Below are positions 248-13,272 of a stretch of 64,000 bases of DNA, piece after piece. The translations under genes were made by a program, and so were the position numbers. This DNA is from Bifidobacterium breve (GTDB taxonomy: Bacteria > Actinomycetota > Actinomycetes > Nanopelagicales > Nanopelagicaceae), in the NCBI GenBank assembly GCA_945860245.1, contig CAMAPO010000001.1:124001-188000 (forward strand), in the 5' to 3' direction. Each line of letters opens with the position of its first letter. Position 1 is the first letter of the stretch. The notes beneath the pieces were generated by a model. The model saw only the letters and a list, made by a program, of their open reading frames with translations, ran no database searches and was not told where the DNA came from.

Positions 248-1996
248 ATGTTACGTACTCACGACGCTGGCTCATTGCGCGCAACGGATGCGGGTCAAGT
301 TGTTTCCTTGGCTGGTTGGGTTGCGCGTCGCCGCGATCACGGTGGGGTGGCATTTATCGATCTTCGCGACGCTACGGGTTCGGTGCAGGTTGTAATTCGT
401 GACGAGGCGCTTGCTGGGCAACTTCGTGCCGAATGGTGTCTGCAAATCACAGGTGAAGTTGTGCTTCGGCCAGAAGGAAATGCGAATTCTGCTCTTCCAA
501 CAGGTGCGATCGAGATTATGGGCGATGATGTAAAAGTTCTGAGCGAATCTGCGGCTTTGCCATTTCCTGTGGATAGTGGCAACGACTCAGAAATTTCAGA
601 GGAAGTTCGCTTGAAGTATCGCTATCTAGATCTGCGTCGTGAAAAGCCGGCTGCCAATTTAAGATTGCGTTCAAAGGTAACCTCAACGATTCGTCGCGTG
701 ATGGAAGATCTAGATTTTCTAGAAATTGAAACGCCATATTTAACACGTAGCACACCCGAAGGCGCGCGTGACTTTCTAGTTCCGGTTCGCCTCCAGCCTG
801 GCAGTTGGTATGCACTTCCTCAGTCCCCACAATTATTTAAGCAGTTATTGATGGTGGCTGGCATGGAGCGTTACTACCAAATAGCACGTTGCTTCCGTGA
901 TGAAGATTTCCGTGCAGATCGCCAACCTGAATTTACGCAACTAGATATCGAAATGTCATTTATCGATCAGGCCGATATTTTGGCAGTAGCCGAGAAGTTG
1001 CTTGTTAAAATTTGGAGAGAAGCTGTTGGCTACGATATCAAGACGCCGATTCGCCACATGACTTACGCCGATGCGATGCAGAATTATGGCTCCGATAAGC
1101 CAGATCTTCGTTTTGATTTAAAATTGGTAGAACAAACTCAATTCTTCGCTAAGACTGAGTTTCGAGTATTCCAAGCGCCGTATATTGGCAGCGTAGTAAT
1201 GCCGGGAGGTGCAACTTCGCCGCGTCGTGAATTAGATGCTTGGCAAGATTGGGCGAAGGCTCGTGGCGCAAAGGGTCTGGCGTACATTCTTGTTAATGAA
1301 GATGGAACATTGGGTGGGCCGGTCTCGAAGAATATTTCACAGGACGAGCAAGATGGGATCGTTGCGGCAGCTGGCGCAAAAGCGGGAGATGCAATCTTCT
1401 TCGCAGCGGGAGAACGCAGTGCGGCACTTGCCTTACTAGGCGCGGTTCGTCTTGAGATCGGTAAACGTTGTAACTTAATTGCTGAGGGAGCTTGGGAATT
1501 TCTCTGGGTTGTAGATGCTCCAATGTTTGAACCAACGGATAACGGTGGTTGGACTGCAGTTCACCATCCATTTACCGGCCCTAAACCAGAGTTTGCCCAG
1601 AGCTTTAAATCAGATCCAGCTAGCGCTTTGGCTTACGCCTATGACATTGTTCTAAATGGAACCGAACTTGGTGGGGGTTCGATACGTATTCACGATCGCC
1701 AAATTCAGAAAGATGTCTTTAACGTTATTGGTTTAAGTGATGAAGAAGCGGCAAGCAAATTCGGCTTCTTATTAGAAGCATTTAATTACGGTCCGCCTCC
1801 ACACGGTGGAATCGCCCTTGGTTTAGATCGTGTCTGCGCCTTGCTAACGGGGAGTGATTCAATCCGAGAGGTGATTGCATTTCCGAAGACCGCCAGCGGT
1901 GGCGATCCGCTTACTGGTGCACCAACTCCGATTACGCCAGCGCAGCGAAAAGAGAGTGGAATTGACGGGCTACCGAAAGCCGAAAGCAAGGGCTAA
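248..1996 (+). CDS. aspS: Aspartate--tRNA ligase
   Basis: Class II aminoacyl-tRNA synthetase that charges tRNA-Asp in the cytoplasm; 582 residues, normal for the bacterial type. The N-terminal OB-fold (about 1-105, with [19 protein letters not shown]) binds the anticodon. Motif 2 is seen in [18 protein letters not shown] and motif 3 in GIALGLDRV near residue 525. The insertion between motifs 2 and 3 is the bacterial GAD-type domain. The ATG follows a purine-rich AAAGAAGAG. Whether it is discriminating or also charges tRNA-Asn cannot be settled here and depends on asnS or gatCAB elsewhere. Confidence 0.95.
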
Positions 1997-2058
1997 GGCC
2001 TCTCTCGGGTAGGCTCTGCCTAACTTAAGTTTATTTAATTTGGCGAAAGGTTCAGAAA

Positions 2059-2427
2059 ATGGTTACAGGTCCAGGCGGAGTTGCAACGATCATTGCTGCC
2101 TGCTCGCTTCTCGTAATAGCTATTGCTATTTCGTACGCCGTCATTCGTATCGGTCGATTTATTGATGAGGCAAAGATCTCTCTAAAGACTATGACCGATG
2201 AGACTGCACCACTAATCCACGAGTCAACTAGAACGGTGGAGTTGATAAATAGCCCACTAGAAAGTTTTGCTCGTATCACCAAGAATGTGGAAGATGTAAC
2301 TACAAAAGTTGCTGATGCCACCACAGGATTTATGGATAAGAGTGGACCAGCGGTGAAAGTGGCTGGCGCGATAATTAGCGCAGCGGGTATGAAGAAGACG
2401 CGTGCAAAAAAGAAGAAGGCGAAGTAA
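2059..2427 (+). CDS. DUF948-family membrane-anchored protein
   Basis: A 122-residue protein with one N-terminal transmembrane helix (about residues 8-29), a helical stretch likely to form a coiled coil, and a lysine-rich tail (KKTRAKKKKAK). This matches the DUF948 proteins found between aspS and alaS in many Actinobacteria. No enzymatic motif is seen and the function is unknown; a membrane-tethered scaffold is the most that can be inferred. An AAAGG Shine-Dalgarno lies 9 nt before the ATG. It ends 9 bp before alaS, so the two are probably co-transcribed. Confidence 0.75.
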   Translation: MVTGPGGVATIIAACSLLVIAIAISYAVIRIGRFIDEAKISLKTMTDETAPLIHESTRTVELINSPLESFARITKNVEDVTTKVADATTGFMDKSGPAVKVAGAIISAAGMKKTRAKKKKAK

Positions 2428-2436
2428 GCCTACAAA

Positions 2437-5112
2437 GTGGAATCCGCCGAGATCCGTTCGCGCTGGCTACGCTTTTTCGAAAGCGATAACCGCGAAGGCT
2501 TAAATCACACCGTTGTGCCATCGGCCTCTCTTATTGCTGATGACCCCAACTTGCTCCTAGTTAACGCTGGAATGGTGCCATTTAAACCTTACTTTCTTGG
2601 CGAAATTACCCCGCCCTTTAAGCGCGCAACTTCCGTTCAAAAATGTGTTCGTACTTTAGATATAGATGAAGTTGGAAAAACTACTCGTCACGCCTCTTTC
2701 TTTCAGATGTGCGGCAACTTCTCTTTCGGCGATTATTTTAAAGAGGGCGCTATCGCTCTAGCTTGGGATTTATTGACCCGTCCAATTTCCGATGGGGGAT
2801 ATGGCTTTCCTGAAGATAAGTTGTGGGTGACGGTCTATCTCACCGATGATGAAGCAGCAGATATTTGGCATAAGAAGATTGGCATTCCCAAGGAGCGTAT
2901 CCAACGCCGCGACATGGCGGATAACTTTTGGTCGATGGGCGTTCCTGGCCCTTGCGGACCGTGTTCTGAGATTTACTTTGACCGCGGACCCGCCTACGGA
3001 CGTGATGGTGGTCCGATTGCTGATGAGAATAGATATCTCGAAATTTGGAACCTGGTGTTCATGCAAAATGAACGTGGTGCAGGTGGTGGTAAAGATGGTT
3101 ACCCGATTCTTGGCGAACTACCCGCAAAGAGTATTGATACCGGTCTCGGCCTAGAACGAACAGCGGCTCTATTGCAAGGTGTGGATAATATTTACGAGAT
3201 TGATACCACGATGCAGATTGTGCAGCGTGCTATGGATCTTAGTGGCGTCAAATACGGTGCGAATGAGAGATCTGATATCTCACTGCGCGTCATCGCAGAT
3301 CACGCGCGTACATCAGCAATGTTAATTGGTGATGGTGTGACGCCAGGTAATGAAGGACGAGGTTATGTTCTTCGTCGCATGATGCGCCGCACAATTAGAA
3401 ATATGCGCCTTCTCGGAACCAACGATCCAATTATGTCCGAACTCACCGTTGCTGCCATCGGTGCCATGGGCACGCAATATCCAGAGTTGATTAGCGATAA
3501 GAAGCGAATTTTAGAAGTATCGGTATCTGAGGAAGAATCTTTCTTACAGACTTTAAAGAGTGGAACACAGATTTTCGACCTTGCTTCTGCGCAATTGAAG
3601 AGCGAGAAGAAGAGAGTCTTGCCTGGAGAGGAAGTCTTTAAGCTCCACGATACCTACGGTTTTCCTTTCGATTTAACCCTGGAAATGGCCCGTGAAGCAG
3701 GTTTGGAGGTAGATGAAGCTGGGTTTACTAGGCTGATGAAAGAACAACGCGATCGCGCTAAATCAGATGCGAAGGCGAAGAAAAGTGGTCACACAGATTT
3801 GAGCGAGTATAAGAAGATCGCTGATTCTAAAGGTGTGGGCGAATTTATTGGTTATACAAATACACAATCTGAAGCAAAGTTAAATGGAATTCTGGTCAAC
3901 GGTCTAAGCGTTTCGAGCGCTAGCGCTGGAGATGGCGTTGAAATCGTTTTAGACCGAACTCCTTTCTATGCCGAGGGTGGCGGGCAATTGGCTGATGGTG
4001 GAACAATCACGTTGGCCAGTGGCGCAGTAATTGAGATTGATGATGTGCAGATGCCAATTAAGGATCTTTCAGTACATCGTGGTCGCGTGCTATCTGGTGC
4101 AATTGCATTGGGAGATAGCGCTCTAGCTGAGATTGATGGTGAGCGACGCAGCGCGATCTCTCGTTCACATACAGCGACACATATGGTTCATAAAGCCTTT
4201 CGGGAATTTCTGGGTGAGACAGCTACCCAAGCAGGTTCAGAAAATTCACCAGGTCGTTTTCGCTTCGATTTCCCCGCAACGGGCGCGGTTCCAGATAGCG
4301 TCTTAAGCGATGTAGAAGCACGTGTAAATACTTTACTCCTTGATGATTTAGAAGTTAGCGCGGAGGTAATGTCACAAGAAGCTGCGAAAAAAATTGGCGC
4401 AATGGCACTTTTTGGTGAGAAGTATGGCGATCAAGTGAGAGTAATTAGCGTTGGAGATTGGGCGCGTGAACTTTGTGGGGGCACACACGTAGCTCGCTCG
4501 GGTCAGCTTGGAGTAATAAAACTCCTGAGCGAATCTTCTATTGGAGCAGGAGTCCGACGTGTAGAAGCGCTCGTCGGTGTCGACGCCTATAAATTCCTAG
4601 CACGCGAACATCTCTTATTGAATTCACTTACCGATTTAATAAAAGGTTCGCGCGCCGAAGAGTTACCAGAGCGGATTTCAGATCTCTTGGCGAAGATGAA
4701 GGAAATTGAGAAGGAGTTAGCGGCGGTACGTTCGGCGGCGGCAATGTCTGATCTATCCTCGTTAGCTGCGAAAGCGAAAATGGTTAACGGAACTTCATTT
4801 ATTGCACTCAAGATTGCAGATGGAGTCGTTGTCGATGATCTACGTAAGATCGCTCTAGATTTACGTAACCGAAACGCTAAATCGGTGGTTGTTTTAATAA
4901 GTGTGACAGATGGTAAACCAGTACTGGTTGCCGCTGTTAGTGATGGCGCAAGAGCTCAAGGCATTAAGGCGGGCGCTCTTGTAAAGATTGGTTCGACGAT
5001 CCTTGGCGGTGGCGGTGGCGGCAAGGATGATTTTGCACAAGGTGGAGGAACATCTACTTCTGAAGTTACCAACGCTTTAACAGCAATCGAGAAAGCTCTT
5101 TCGGGAAATTAA
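2437..5112 (+). CDS. alaS: Alanine--tRNA ligase
   Basis: Charges tRNA-Ala and clears mischarged Ser/Gly-tRNA. The 891 residues hold the full architecture: class II aminoacylation core (about 1-260), tRNA recognition region, editing domain with zinc-site motifs HTATH and CGGTH, and a C-terminal glycine-rich DHHA1 domain ([15 protein letters not shown]). The GTG start at 2437 gives the expected N-terminus ([14 protein letters not shown]). No clear Shine-Dalgarno lies in the 9 bp after the preceding gene, so translational coupling is likely. Its stop overlaps the ruvX start as TAATG. Confidence 0.96.
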
Positions 5113-7420: not shown

Positions 7421-7819
7421 GTGTATCTGGCACTTATTGGATTTTCTCTTTATATTTCATATATAGATCTAAAGAGCCATCGCATATCTAACAGATCTCT
7501 AGCGCTGGCATTTCCGCTCTTTCTAACACTCGCATATGTGCAGGGTCAATCACTGTATCTGAAGAGCGCTCTATTATGCGCTGCGATATCCCCTTTACTT
7601 ATCAAAGCAAAGATTGGAGCTGGTGATGTCAAATTGCTCATCTTACTTGCTCTCTTTTTTCTTCCTAACACTTTGTTGATCTGGAGTGATTTTCTATCTC
7701 TTTTTTCAACGATTTCCGTCGCCCTAATTTTGCACACCGGCCTAAAGGAGAGAACGCTGCAATCGAGTATCGCTCTTGCGCCCGCTATTTGCGGCGCGGT
7801 TATTTGGTGCGCAAGTTAG
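7421..7819 (+). CDS. Prepilin peptidase-like protein (A24 family, catalytic domain only)
   Basis: A 132-residue hydrophobic protein with about four to five membrane helices. Both aspartates of the A24 aspartyl protease family are present: one in [12 protein letters not shown] and one in the GAGDVKLL motif. Family members cut the leader of type IV pilin-like precursors at the inner membrane. The N-terminal methyltransferase part of full PilD is absent, as in short archaeal/TadV-type and actinobacterial forms. It lies between aroE and aroC, as in Mycobacterium. No pilin or tad gene is nearby, so its substrate is unknown. Confidence 0.75.
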
Positions 7820-11132: not shown

Positions 11133-11693
11133 GTGGCAACAACTAATGATTTAAAAAATGGCATGACCTTAGATATTGATGGTCAACTATGGACTGTTGT
11201 TGAATTCCAACACGTGAAGCCAGGTAAGGGTCCAGCCTTTGTGCGATCCAAGTTGAAGCAGGTTTTAACTGGGAAAGTAGTAGATAAGACTTTTAACGCT
11301 GGAGTAAAGATAGAAATAGCCATTTTAGAGAAGCGAGAGATGAACTTCCTCTATAAAGAGGGCGAAGATTTCGTATTTATGGATAATAAAACCTTTGATC
11401 AGATGAATATAAGTTCGGCCACGGTGGGTGATTCGGCGCAATATATGTTGGAGAACACCGAAGCGATTGTGGCTATTCATGAGAATAACCCGCTCTATAT
11501 AGAGCTACCAGCGTCGGTAGTTCTCACTATTACCTATACCGAGCCTGGCCTACAAGGTGATCGCTCTTCAGGTGGAACTAAACCTGCAACAGTCGAGACT
11601 GGAATTCAAATTCAAGTACCACTTTTTATCAAGCAAGATGAAAAGGTCTTAGTTGATACTCGTGATGGATCATATTTGGGTCGCGCGAACTAG
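11133..11693 (+). CDS. efp: Translation elongation factor P
   Basis: Relieves ribosome stalling at polyproline. The GTG at 11133 is preferred because it gives the family N-terminus ([10 protein letters not shown]) and has GGAG 6 nt upstream; the open frame extends back to 11097 without similarity. 186 residues in three beta domains. The loop at the ribosomal P-site tip reads PGKGP (30-34) with Lys32 at the apex, the actinobacterial form reported to work without lysine modification. The C-terminal [16 protein letters not shown] is typical. It overlaps the nusB GTG by one base (TAGTG). Confidence 0.95.
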
Positions 11694-12115
11694 TGTCTGC
11701 CAGAAGTAAGGCCCGCAAACATTGCCTAGATCTACTTTATGAAGGCGATATTCGTGGTTTAGCACCGGCTGATCTTTTGGCGATACGAGATATTGACGAT
11801 GATGGCCCTGATGCACGGCCGATACGCGAATATACTAAAGAGTTGATTTTAGGAGTCGCAGATAATCGCCGGAAGATCGATGAATTGATATCTACTTACG
11901 CGCAAGGCTGGGATATGGATCGGCTTCCTGCGGTAGATCGAAATATTCTGCGGCTAGGCATATATGAAATTTTATGGTGTAAAGATTTGGAAGATGCGAT
12001 TGCAATTGATGAAGCGCTCAACCTAGCTAGAGAGCTCTCCACAGATGACTCAGCAACCTATATCCATGGCGTTCTTGGCCGAATAGCATCAATCAAAGAT
12101 AGTTTGGCAATCTAG
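11693..12115 (+). CDS. nusB: Transcription antitermination factor NusB
   Basis: All-helical RNA-binding protein that, with NusE (S10), forms the antitermination complex on rRNA operons. 140 residues. The N-terminal SKARKHCLDLLYEGD, the central RLPAVDRNILRLGIYEI and the C-terminal YIHGVLGRIA match the family. GTG start overlapping the efp stop. efp-nusB adjacency is standard in Actinobacteria. It converges with bldD, leaving 2 bp between the stops. Confidence 0.92.
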   Translation: MSARSKARKHCLDLLYEGDIRGLAPADLLAIRDIDDDGPDARPIREYTKELILGVADNRRKIDELISTYAQGWDMDRLPAVDRNILRLGIYEILWCKDLEDAIAIDEALNLARELSTDDSATYIHGVLGRIASIKDSLAI

Positions 12116-12117
12116 CC

Positions 12118-12612
12118 TCACCCCAAGGTAATCTTCCATTCGCTCAGCCATTGCGATAACTGACTCTGGTTCATCTCCAAAAGAAGCGTTAAGTTATCTA
12201 AATCGGTGAAACGCAAGGTCAAGATTTCGCCATTCCAGTCACCTCTACGCTGTGCAATGGCGATTAGAAATCTATGAATTTTATTGAATCTTTCGTCGTC
12301 GCCTTCTTCCATTAGCTGGCCAACTCGCCTCTGATCAAATCTGCGAGACTTTAAATTCAGATCGTGCACTGGGTTGGAACCGCTCAATAGATCAACTATT
12401 GGTATTCCAAATAGATTGGCTAACTCCAATGCCCGAGCCAGGGATATTGCGCGGGTGCCACGTTCGTAAGAACCCATAACAACGGCCTTGATCGAGCCAC
12501 CAGATCTGGCTTCGATATCGTTGAGAGTCCAGCCGCGCGACTTGCGTATAGAACGCAGACGTAGCGAGACTGATTCTGGAGTGGGCTGGCTAAATGCCGG
12601 GGTAGTTTTCAT
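12118..12612 (-). CDS. bldD: BldD-like transcriptional regulator with cyclic-di-GMP motif
   Basis: Homologue of the Streptomyces developmental repressor BldD. The ATG at 12612 (164 residues) is preferred over the GTG at 12645 because TAACCT sits 7 nt upstream and the length matches BldD. The N-terminal XRE-type helix-turn-helix (about 16-78) contains AVVMGSYERGTRAIS, close to the BldD family sequence. The C-terminal domain contains Arg123-Gly-Asp125, eight residues, then Arg134-x-x-Asp137, the RxD-X8-RxxD pattern that binds tetrameric cyclic-di-GMP. The gene sits after nusB and before the pyr operon, as in other Actinobacteria. Confidence 0.85.
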   Translation of the reverse strand: MKTTPAFSQPTPESVSLRLRSIRKSRGWTLNDIEARSGGSIKAVVMGSYERGTRAISLARALELANLFGIPIVDLLSGSNPVHDLNLKSRRFDQRRVGQLMEEGDDERFNKIHRFLIAIAQRRGDWNGEILTLRFTDLDNLTLLLEMNQSQLSQWLSEWKITLG

Positions 12613-12619
12613 ACGCGGT

Positions 12620-12625
12620 AGGTTA
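12620..12625 (-). promoter_or_regulatory. Probable -10 element of bldD (leaderless)
   Basis: Minus-strand TAACCT ends 7 nt before the ATG at 12612. It would exclude the longer GTG-initiated reading. Confidence 0.5.
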
Positions 12626-12657
12626 AGGCGATCGGCACCGTTCACACTTCCGGCTGT

Positions 12658-12670
12658 CCACAGGATGTGG
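12658..12670. promoter_or_regulatory. CCAC-N5-GTGG palindrome upstream of bldD
   Basis: The perfect dyad CCAC AGGAT GTGG keeps the ACnnnnnGT core of the Streptomyces BldD box. It lies about 45 bp upstream of the proposed bldD start and just before the pyrR promoter region. It may be an autoregulatory site. This is inference from spacing and symmetry. Confidence 0.35.
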
Positions 12671-12681
12671 CTCCGGCGGTG

Positions 12682-12687
12682 TACTAT
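12682..12687 (+). promoter_or_regulatory. Candidate -10 element of the pyr operon
   Basis: TACTAT fits TAnnnT and would start transcription near 12694, giving an untranslated leader of about 45 nt that includes the PyrR-binding hairpin. No convincing -35 was found. Confidence 0.4.
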
Positions 12688-12704
12688 TTGCCAACATCCT
12701 TTAA

Positions 12705-12732
12705 CGACCCGTCCTGCGAGGCGGGGAAGGAG
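12705..12732 (+). promoter_or_regulatory. PyrR-binding RNA hairpin overlapping the pyrR ribosome site
   Basis: The leader holds CCCG-(T)-CCT, loop GCG, AGG-CGGG (12708-12725), directly followed by GAAGGAG (12726-12732), the Shine-Dalgarno for the ATG at 12739. The TCCTGCGAGGC segment resembles the conserved loop bound by PyrR with UMP. In mycobacteria PyrR bound at this place blocks ribosome access, so translational repression by uridine nucleotides is the likely mechanism. Confidence 0.75.
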
Positions 12733-12738
12733 ATTTAA

Positions 12739-13272
12739 ATGAGCCTTGTCCTGCCTGCGCCAGATATATCCCGCGCACTTACTCGAATTTCACATGAGAT
12801 CCTGGAACGAAATGCTGGCTCCAAGGCCATCACATTATTGGGGATTCCAACTCGTGGTGCGCATCTAGCTAAACGTATCGCCGAAATAATTAGCAAGATC
12901 GAGAATCTCCCGATCCAAGTGGGCACCCTAGATATCACGCTACATCGCGATGACCTGCGGTTGCGTCCTCCTCGGGCTTTGATGCCAACCATGATTCCTT
13001 CATTAGGGGTTGAAGGTAGAAATGTAATCCTGGTTGATGACGTTCTCTTCTCTGGCAGAACAATCCGTGCCGCTCTAGATGCGCTCGGAGAAATTGGTCG
13101 ACCAAAGAGCGTGCAGTTAGCGATCTTGGTAGATCGAGGTCATCGAGAGCTACCGATTCGTGCAGATTATGTTGGTAAAAATATTCCAACCTCAATTTCC
13201 CAAAGCGTGATTGTTCATCTAACTGAGCTCGATGGTGTTGATGAAGTGTTGATTGAAGGTAGCAGCGAATGA
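12739..13272 (+). CDS. pyrR: Pyrimidine operon regulatory protein PyrR
   Basis: RNA-binding regulator of the pyr operon, with weak uracil phosphoribosyltransferase activity in some species. 177 residues. The PRPP-binding loop is [33 protein letters not shown] and [20 protein letters not shown] are family signatures. Strong GAAGGAG 6 nt before the ATG, within its own target hairpin. It overlaps pyrB by 4 bp (ATGA), so repression of pyrR should spread to the coupled genes. Confidence 0.95.

Follow-up and report, generated by a model that had tools for sequence, protein, structure and literature searches.

The window analysed here, a 64,000-nucleotide stretch from a genome of the actinobacterial order Nanopelagicales, encodes an orthologue of BldD, a transcription factor that in Streptomyces is joined into a DNA-holding pair by the second messenger cyclic-di-GMP (c-di-GMP). 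We favour a reading, held at a probability of about 0.77, in which a vertically inherited BldD is bound by c-di-GMP and serves a role other than sporulation, in a cell with one synthase for the messenger and no recognisable phosphodiesterase. In the proposed mechanism, the C-terminal domain (CTD) would most likely bind c-di-GMP through R123/D125 and R134/D137, the bound messenger would join two BldD subunits, and the paired helix-turn-helix domains would then hold DNA, as in Streptomyces. The c-di-GMP would be made by one membrane-anchored GGDEF enzyme without a product-inhibition site and, because neither an EAL nor an HD-GYP enzyme is recognisable, its level would probably be set by synthase activity against dilution by growth or an unrecognised hydrolase. 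The genes under BldD control are unlikely to be a sporulation set like that of Streptomyces.

The BldD orthologue and its signature motif

The window protein matched the Pfam families HTH_3 (1.8e-08) and BldD-like_C (5e-11), and among solved structures its sequence matched 2ewt (1e-13), which is the DNA-binding domain of BldD, and the BldD CTDs 4oay and 5tzd (1.3e-05). The AlphaFold2 model, with a mean predicted local distance difference test score (pLDDT) of 90.9, agrees with both solved BldD domains: its N-terminal part aligned with 4ob4_C at a Z-score of 12.7 over 68 residues, and its CTD with 5khd_A, a complex of the BldD CTD with c-di-GMP, at a Z-score of 12.2 and a root-mean-square deviation of 1.4 over 72 residues. 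Domains, sequence matches and predicted structure thus bear out the identification of this protein as BldD in the initial annotation, which was made from the letters without database searches. That annotation had also reported the exact RxD-X8-RxxD signature, and its residue numbers (R123, D125, R134 and D137) and eight-residue spacing, here WNGEILTL, were all correct.

Conservation of the signature was followed through a survey of 201 genomes of the order, 177 of which gave a BldD match. Examined in full were 89 loci from these 177 genomes, ten named loci, counted separately from those of the order, and the window itself, making 100 loci and 94 distinct proteins. The motif that had been read from this one sequence is present in 100/100 loci. 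Across the 94 orthologues, which have a median pairwise CTD identity of 32%, only four of the 77 CTD columns are invariant, and these are exactly R123, D125, R134 and D137. Ten columns are invariant in the whole protein, the remaining six (R23, G47, Y49, E50, R51 and R54) lying in the helix-turn-helix domain, and the invariance of these six and of the four ligand columns shows that BldD is under continuing selection where it is kept. N127 and G128 each show one exception, and the x of RxD is highly variable (R, S, Q, G, K, N and others), as expected if the ligand is contacted by R and D alone.

The chance that four random CTD columns would be these four is 7e-07, a rough guide given that columns are not independent draws, and by this alignment the motif is not due to chance. 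The invariant set was unchanged when 22 proteins from the wider class were added, and G128 joined it in another alignment, made from 70 selected sequences. Outside the order the motif was found in 50/50 class loci examined, comprising the 30 best-scoring matches and 20 chosen one per family, a set in which f18, the family with more diverged domains, was not included. In Streptomyces BldD, the residues R114, D116, R125 and D128 specify c-di-GMP and are conserved in sporulating actinomycetes (PMC4151990). The invariant CTD residues of the orthologues coincide with these published contacts, and the hydrophobic positions of the fold core vary. With an intact-motif cyclase in the same genome, this makes the sensing of c-di-GMP, as proposed in the initial annotation, well supported, and c-di-GMP is very likely the ligand of the BldD CTD.

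One cyclase and the search for phosphodiesterases

The source genome has 1,391,335 bases (1.39 Mb) in 47 contigs, with a completeness rating of 93.2% and a contamination rating of 4.48%. It contains one GGDEF protein, an uninterrupted frame of 457 residues on a 16.8-kb contig, C24, matched at 6.9e-32. No variation is seen among 34 aligned cyclase orthologues at the GGDEF residues G380-F384 or at D339, K344, N347 and D348. In the predicted model (mean pLDDT 85.2), about ten N-terminal helices lead into the GGDEF domain, and a fold search with this model returned GGDEF-containing structures in the 50 matches listed. Pfam and NCBIfam gave a name to the GGDEF part alone, leaving the membrane part, and with it the sensor, unnamed. 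The cyclase is predicted to be membrane-anchored; its catalytic motif is intact, and it has no inhibitory I-site. The I-site RxxD is likewise absent in 39 of 43 cyclase loci (the 30 best GGDEF matches of the order and 13 chosen), present in three, all cyclases of 605-619 residues, and unreadable in one. The unreadable locus, L056 of genome G047, has an in-frame TAG that cuts off its GGDEF motif, reflecting either a broken gene or a sequencing error. In L140 the cyclase gene (1661-3028) lies in convergent orientation to a photolyase gene and overlaps it.

The initial annotation had suggested looking for GGDEF and EAL proteins in the genome, and of these the genome proved to hold the first, with its motif intact, and no match to the second. 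The lack of any diguanylate cyclase, which would have refuted that annotation, is therefore not what was found, and a GGDEF match is present in 191/201 order genomes. Profile searches of the source genome gave neither an EAL nor an HD-GYP match; they used PF00563 and PF13487 only and are blind to other phosphodiesterase families and to general nucleases. In 14 control genomes, EAL, HD-GYP and the PilZ receptor domain were matched in 6, 4 and 5, respectively. Within the order, EAL was found in 10/201 genomes (9 above the cut-off), all of 1.5 Mb or more, and HD-GYP and PilZ each in 0/201. EAL is missing from all 17 single-contig genomes of the order survey, each of which carries both BldD and GGDEF.

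A sample of 296 genomes of the class, filtered at 90% completeness, served for comparison. Outside the family, 161 of its 162 BldD-positive genomes had EAL; among family members the figure was 1 of 31. As far as these profiles reach, most of the family is without the usual phosphodiesterases yet retains synthase and receptor, and EAL was most likely lost in the rest of the family, that is, outside a few EAL-bearing members with larger genomes (L042/L072, L055/L079, L057/L076, L073-L075, L077 and L078). The EAL proteins of those members include GGDEF-EAL composites of 720-752 residues and EAL open frames that are 448-759 residues long. That recognisable EAL and HD-GYP phosphodiesterases are almost missing is a point beyond the initial annotation, and the more unusual one. 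In the source genome, the pathway looks like one reduced to a single synthase and a single recognised receptor; further Streptomyces receptors of c-di-GMP, RsiG-WhiG (PMC8325347) and GlgX (PMC9530166), were not searched for.

Weighing the proposed reading

Several observations weigh against the reading that we favour. The window protein missed the cut-off of the NCBIfam BldD equivalog NF050110 (108.8 against 250 bits, E 2.2e-31), and we class it on sequence as a BldD-family orthologue outside that equivalog. BldD was not found in 24/201 order genomes, near-complete ones included, by single-sequence and profile searches; the profile search of these 24 included no genome known to match, and one of them, G028, was also negative where a family profile matched 192 genomes. 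GGDEF is kept in 23 of the 24, so that the cyclase there serves something else or persists without need. Conversely, nine BldD-positive order genomes show no GGDEF, all of them in at least 50 contigs and two (G074 and G068) 98-99% complete. The order genomes thus show no co-variation of BldD with GGDEF. In favour of the reading, across the class sample GGDEF accompanied the BldD domain in all 192 genomes that have it and was missing from 45 of the 104 BldD-negative genomes, an association (Fisher p 1.6e-24) whose test ignores genome relatedness. The BldD-domain search matched 0/14 control genomes. A link of this kind had been noted for actinomycetes with BldD, which were said to encode cyclases too (PMC4151990), and the class sample extends it.

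The DNA side of the mechanism adds further points against. The Streptomyces BldD box, TNAC(N)5GTNA (PMC4151990), occurs in 2/97 regions upstream of bldD against 3.4 expected with equal base frequencies, which leaves autoregulation through the canonical box unsupported, and it is not found upstream of the cyclase of the source genome. A loose form of the box had 18 matches in the window against 9.5 expected, a number reached in 0/100 shuffles, and the reversed loose pattern had 12 against 17.4; none of the 18 is non-coding, and we take the excess to be a coding effect. In ten same-genus genomes, the source included, the strict box TNACNCWGNGTNA matched at 53 sites and its reversed pattern at 19. 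Of the 53 sites, 45 were classed as coding, 6 as intergenic and 2 as lying in short open reading frames. One of the sites classed as intergenic (L229) actually falls in the coding sequence of the photolyase, in which the box is spelled by the codons of D-N-P-A-L; the same is true of G013 (L206). The non-coding share of the sequence around the sites is 4.4% by the same rule, and the remaining 5 to 7 of 53 non-coding sites are a weak excess at best (p 0.08 to 0.008, with no control for base composition). The sole gene with a strict box upstream in two genomes is glycosyltransferase-like by eye, its two copies being 96.7% identical. We do not claim a BldD regulon from this search, given that the sites are mainly coding and that no promoter recurs across the ten genomes. 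The purpose other than sporulation that the initial annotation had put forward is likely, although no target was found for it, and the idea is not new (PMC4255298).

Of the competing explanations, the one that fares best accepts the ligand and questions the turnover: a phosphodiesterase of a kind outside the EAL and HD-GYP profiles may exist, leaving an ordinary two-way c-di-GMP pathway. Unknown families and general nucleases are invisible to the two profiles that were searched, and we regard this as a serious possibility of somewhat under even odds. The same search does find EAL in nearly all BldD-positive class genomes outside the family and in ten genomes of the order, a count that does not speak against an unknown hydrolase. 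At the opposite extreme, the acI lineage, to which the source organism appears to belong, may run an open-loop circuit of one feedback-free membrane cyclase, one transcription factor that reads a c-di-GMP tetramer and no dedicated hydrolase. We consider this rather doubtful; if it is true, the c-di-GMP level and the dimer state of BldD would report the ratio of synthesis to growth dilution, giving a growth-state sensor built from parts that control sporulation elsewhere.

BldD might also be a disappearing relic that does little, the cyclase serving another receptor. The order genomes without BldD, among them G028 at 99% completeness, and the persistence of GGDEF in 23/24 of them would fit such a history, which we nonetheless judge unlikely against the six helix-turn-helix and four ligand columns that remain invariant in 94 distinct proteins.

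It is quite unlikely that the motif is retained for another ligand or a structural need and that c-di-GMP no longer operates BldD. The motif is intact in all five genomes examined of the nine without GGDEF (G074, G139, G068, G080 and G197), two of which are the 98-99% complete assemblies noted above. Against this stand the fragmentation of all nine assemblies, the presence of both genes in every single-contig genome of the order, the lack of any GGDEF-negative genome among the 192 BldD-positive members of the class sample, and an invariant set that equals the c-di-GMP contacts already reported (PMC4151990) rather than the core of the fold. The different ligand that the initial annotation had allowed for is not needed, given the invariance of the contact residues and the presence of a cyclase. 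Finally, that the cyclase contig is contamination in an assembly rated 4.48% contaminated, and that the true genome is without c-di-GMP, is already largely refuted and most improbable: orthologues 81, 83 and 84% identical occur in the same-genus genomes G013 (a single contig), G104 and G190, which argues that this 16.8-kb contig is native to the organism, and homologues of the photolyase encoded beside the cyclase turned up in 31 of the 44 cyclase loci searched, those three genomes included.

The bldD locus and known BldD systems

The features of the locus are collected in the table. Among the 100 loci of the order, named and window sets, a nusB homologue lies on the strand opposite to bldD in 100 and a pyrR homologue in 97. 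In the class loci pyrR stands beside bldD in 48/50 and nusB in 34/50; of these class stretches, 20 are shorter than 2.1 kb. Judged from these gene neighbourhoods, the nusB-bldD-pyrR arrangement is kept from the order to large-genome members of the class. Two loci, L003 (CAMBGS010000006.1) and L008 (CAMCYA010000019.1), 67% and 39% identical to that of the window, are acI-type bldD loci with nusB and pyrR; their records are titled Bifidobacterium breve, and these titles look wrong given the acI-type loci.

Table. Coordinates of bldD, its domains and neighbouring features in the window
Feature	Position	Strand	Basis or remark
bldD orthologue, 164 amino acids	12118..12612	minus	ATG at 12612, stop at 12118 (stop included)
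N-terminal helix-turn-helix DNA-binding domain, residues 13-77	12382..12576	minus	HTH_3; 2ewt/4ob4 Z 12.6-12.7
C-terminal BldD domain, residues 88-164	12121..12351	minus	PF21179; 5khd_A structural match
RxD-X8-RxxD signature, R123-G-D125 ... R134-F-T-D137	12202..12246	minus	sequence and invariance in orthologues
nusB, convergent neighbour of bldD	11693..12115	plus	conserved locus
pyrR, divergent neighbour of bldD, start of pyr genes	12739..13272	plus	conserved locus
TAACCT, possible -10 hexamer 7 nt before ATG	12620..12625	minus	by eye from sequence
TGTGGA element, DnaA-box-like, bldD-pyrR intergenic region	12657..12662	minus	conserved in intergenic regions

If TAACCT served as the -10 element, the bldD mRNA would possibly be near-leaderless; a scan of 11600-13000 for the sigma-70 consensus gave no match. 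The TGTGGA element recurs in 91/97 bldD-pyrR intergenic regions, and 63/97 contain a word within one mismatch of TGTGGATAA, which we take to be the DnaA box consensus, against 1/97 for the reversed word. As a lead only, this element could couple the initiation of replication to bldD or pyrR. The pyrR leader (12698-12734) contains TTAAAGG in 97/97 regions and appears hairpin-like by eye; it is presumably a PyrR-binding RNA element, and an Rfam scan of the stretch returned no family over threshold. Elsewhere in the window, a 132-residue open reading frame (7421-7819, plus strand) resembles by eye a type IV prepilin peptidase and hints at a pilus system.

The initial annotation had supposed a reduced and probably planktonic organism, which is in keeping with the size of the source genome and with the freshwater origin of IMCC26103 (CP015604.1), a strain apparently of the same genus and assigned to the acI lineage, tribe A4 (PMC5301498). 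Diguanylate, c-di-GMP and BldD are all absent from the text of that report, and the literature searched, which leaves out most subscription journals, held no study of BldD or c-di-GMP in Nanopelagicales or of a Planktophila diguanylate cyclase.

The window BldD shares with Streptomyces BldD (PMC4151990; PDB 2ewt, 4ob4, 4oay, 4oaz, 5khd and 5tzd) the two-domain plan and the RxD-X8-RxxD signature, the predicted fold of both domains, the nusB-bldD-pyrR locus and a GGDEF protein in the same genome. Its overall identity to L155, a Streptomyces-like BldD, is about 32%, and its motif reads RGDWNGEILTLRFTD where that of Streptomyces reads RGDYNGKVLSIRQDD. Unlike the Streptomyces system, it has no canonical box at its own promoter and no EAL or HD-GYP match in its genome, which is small and belongs to a lineage not known to sporulate. 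A similar case is RsiG-WhiG of the unicellular Rubrobacter (PMC8325347), where a c-di-GMP developmental switch of Streptomyces is likewise put to another use in a unicellular actinobacterium. RsiG of Rubrobacter is an anti-sigma factor whereas BldD is a repressor; the Rubrobacter target, type IV pili, was proposed from a promoter search and start-site mapping, while the box search gave no target for the acI BldD. CdgC of Streptomyces venezuelae (PMC6205966) is likewise a membrane-bound diguanylate cyclase, and its loss mimics the loss of BldD. It carries PAS-PAC and degenerate EAL domains, whereas the acI cyclase has about ten predicted N-terminal helices and GGDEF only.

Orthologues of bldD with high conservation and local synteny have been described in some simpler actinobacteria, even Acidimicrobium, together with repeated losses, and stationary-phase roles have been suggested for them (PMC4255298). 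A BldD with a role other than sporulation in such organisms was thus already proposed in 2013, and the presence of BldD in the window is not surprising given these known orthologues and their synteny. The less expected part is the missing phosphodiesterases, that is, a stripped pathway. If this reduced pathway is real, it would offer a simple natural setting in which to ask what functions the BldD switch has apart from sporulation and how a second messenger operates when nothing is dedicated to removing it.
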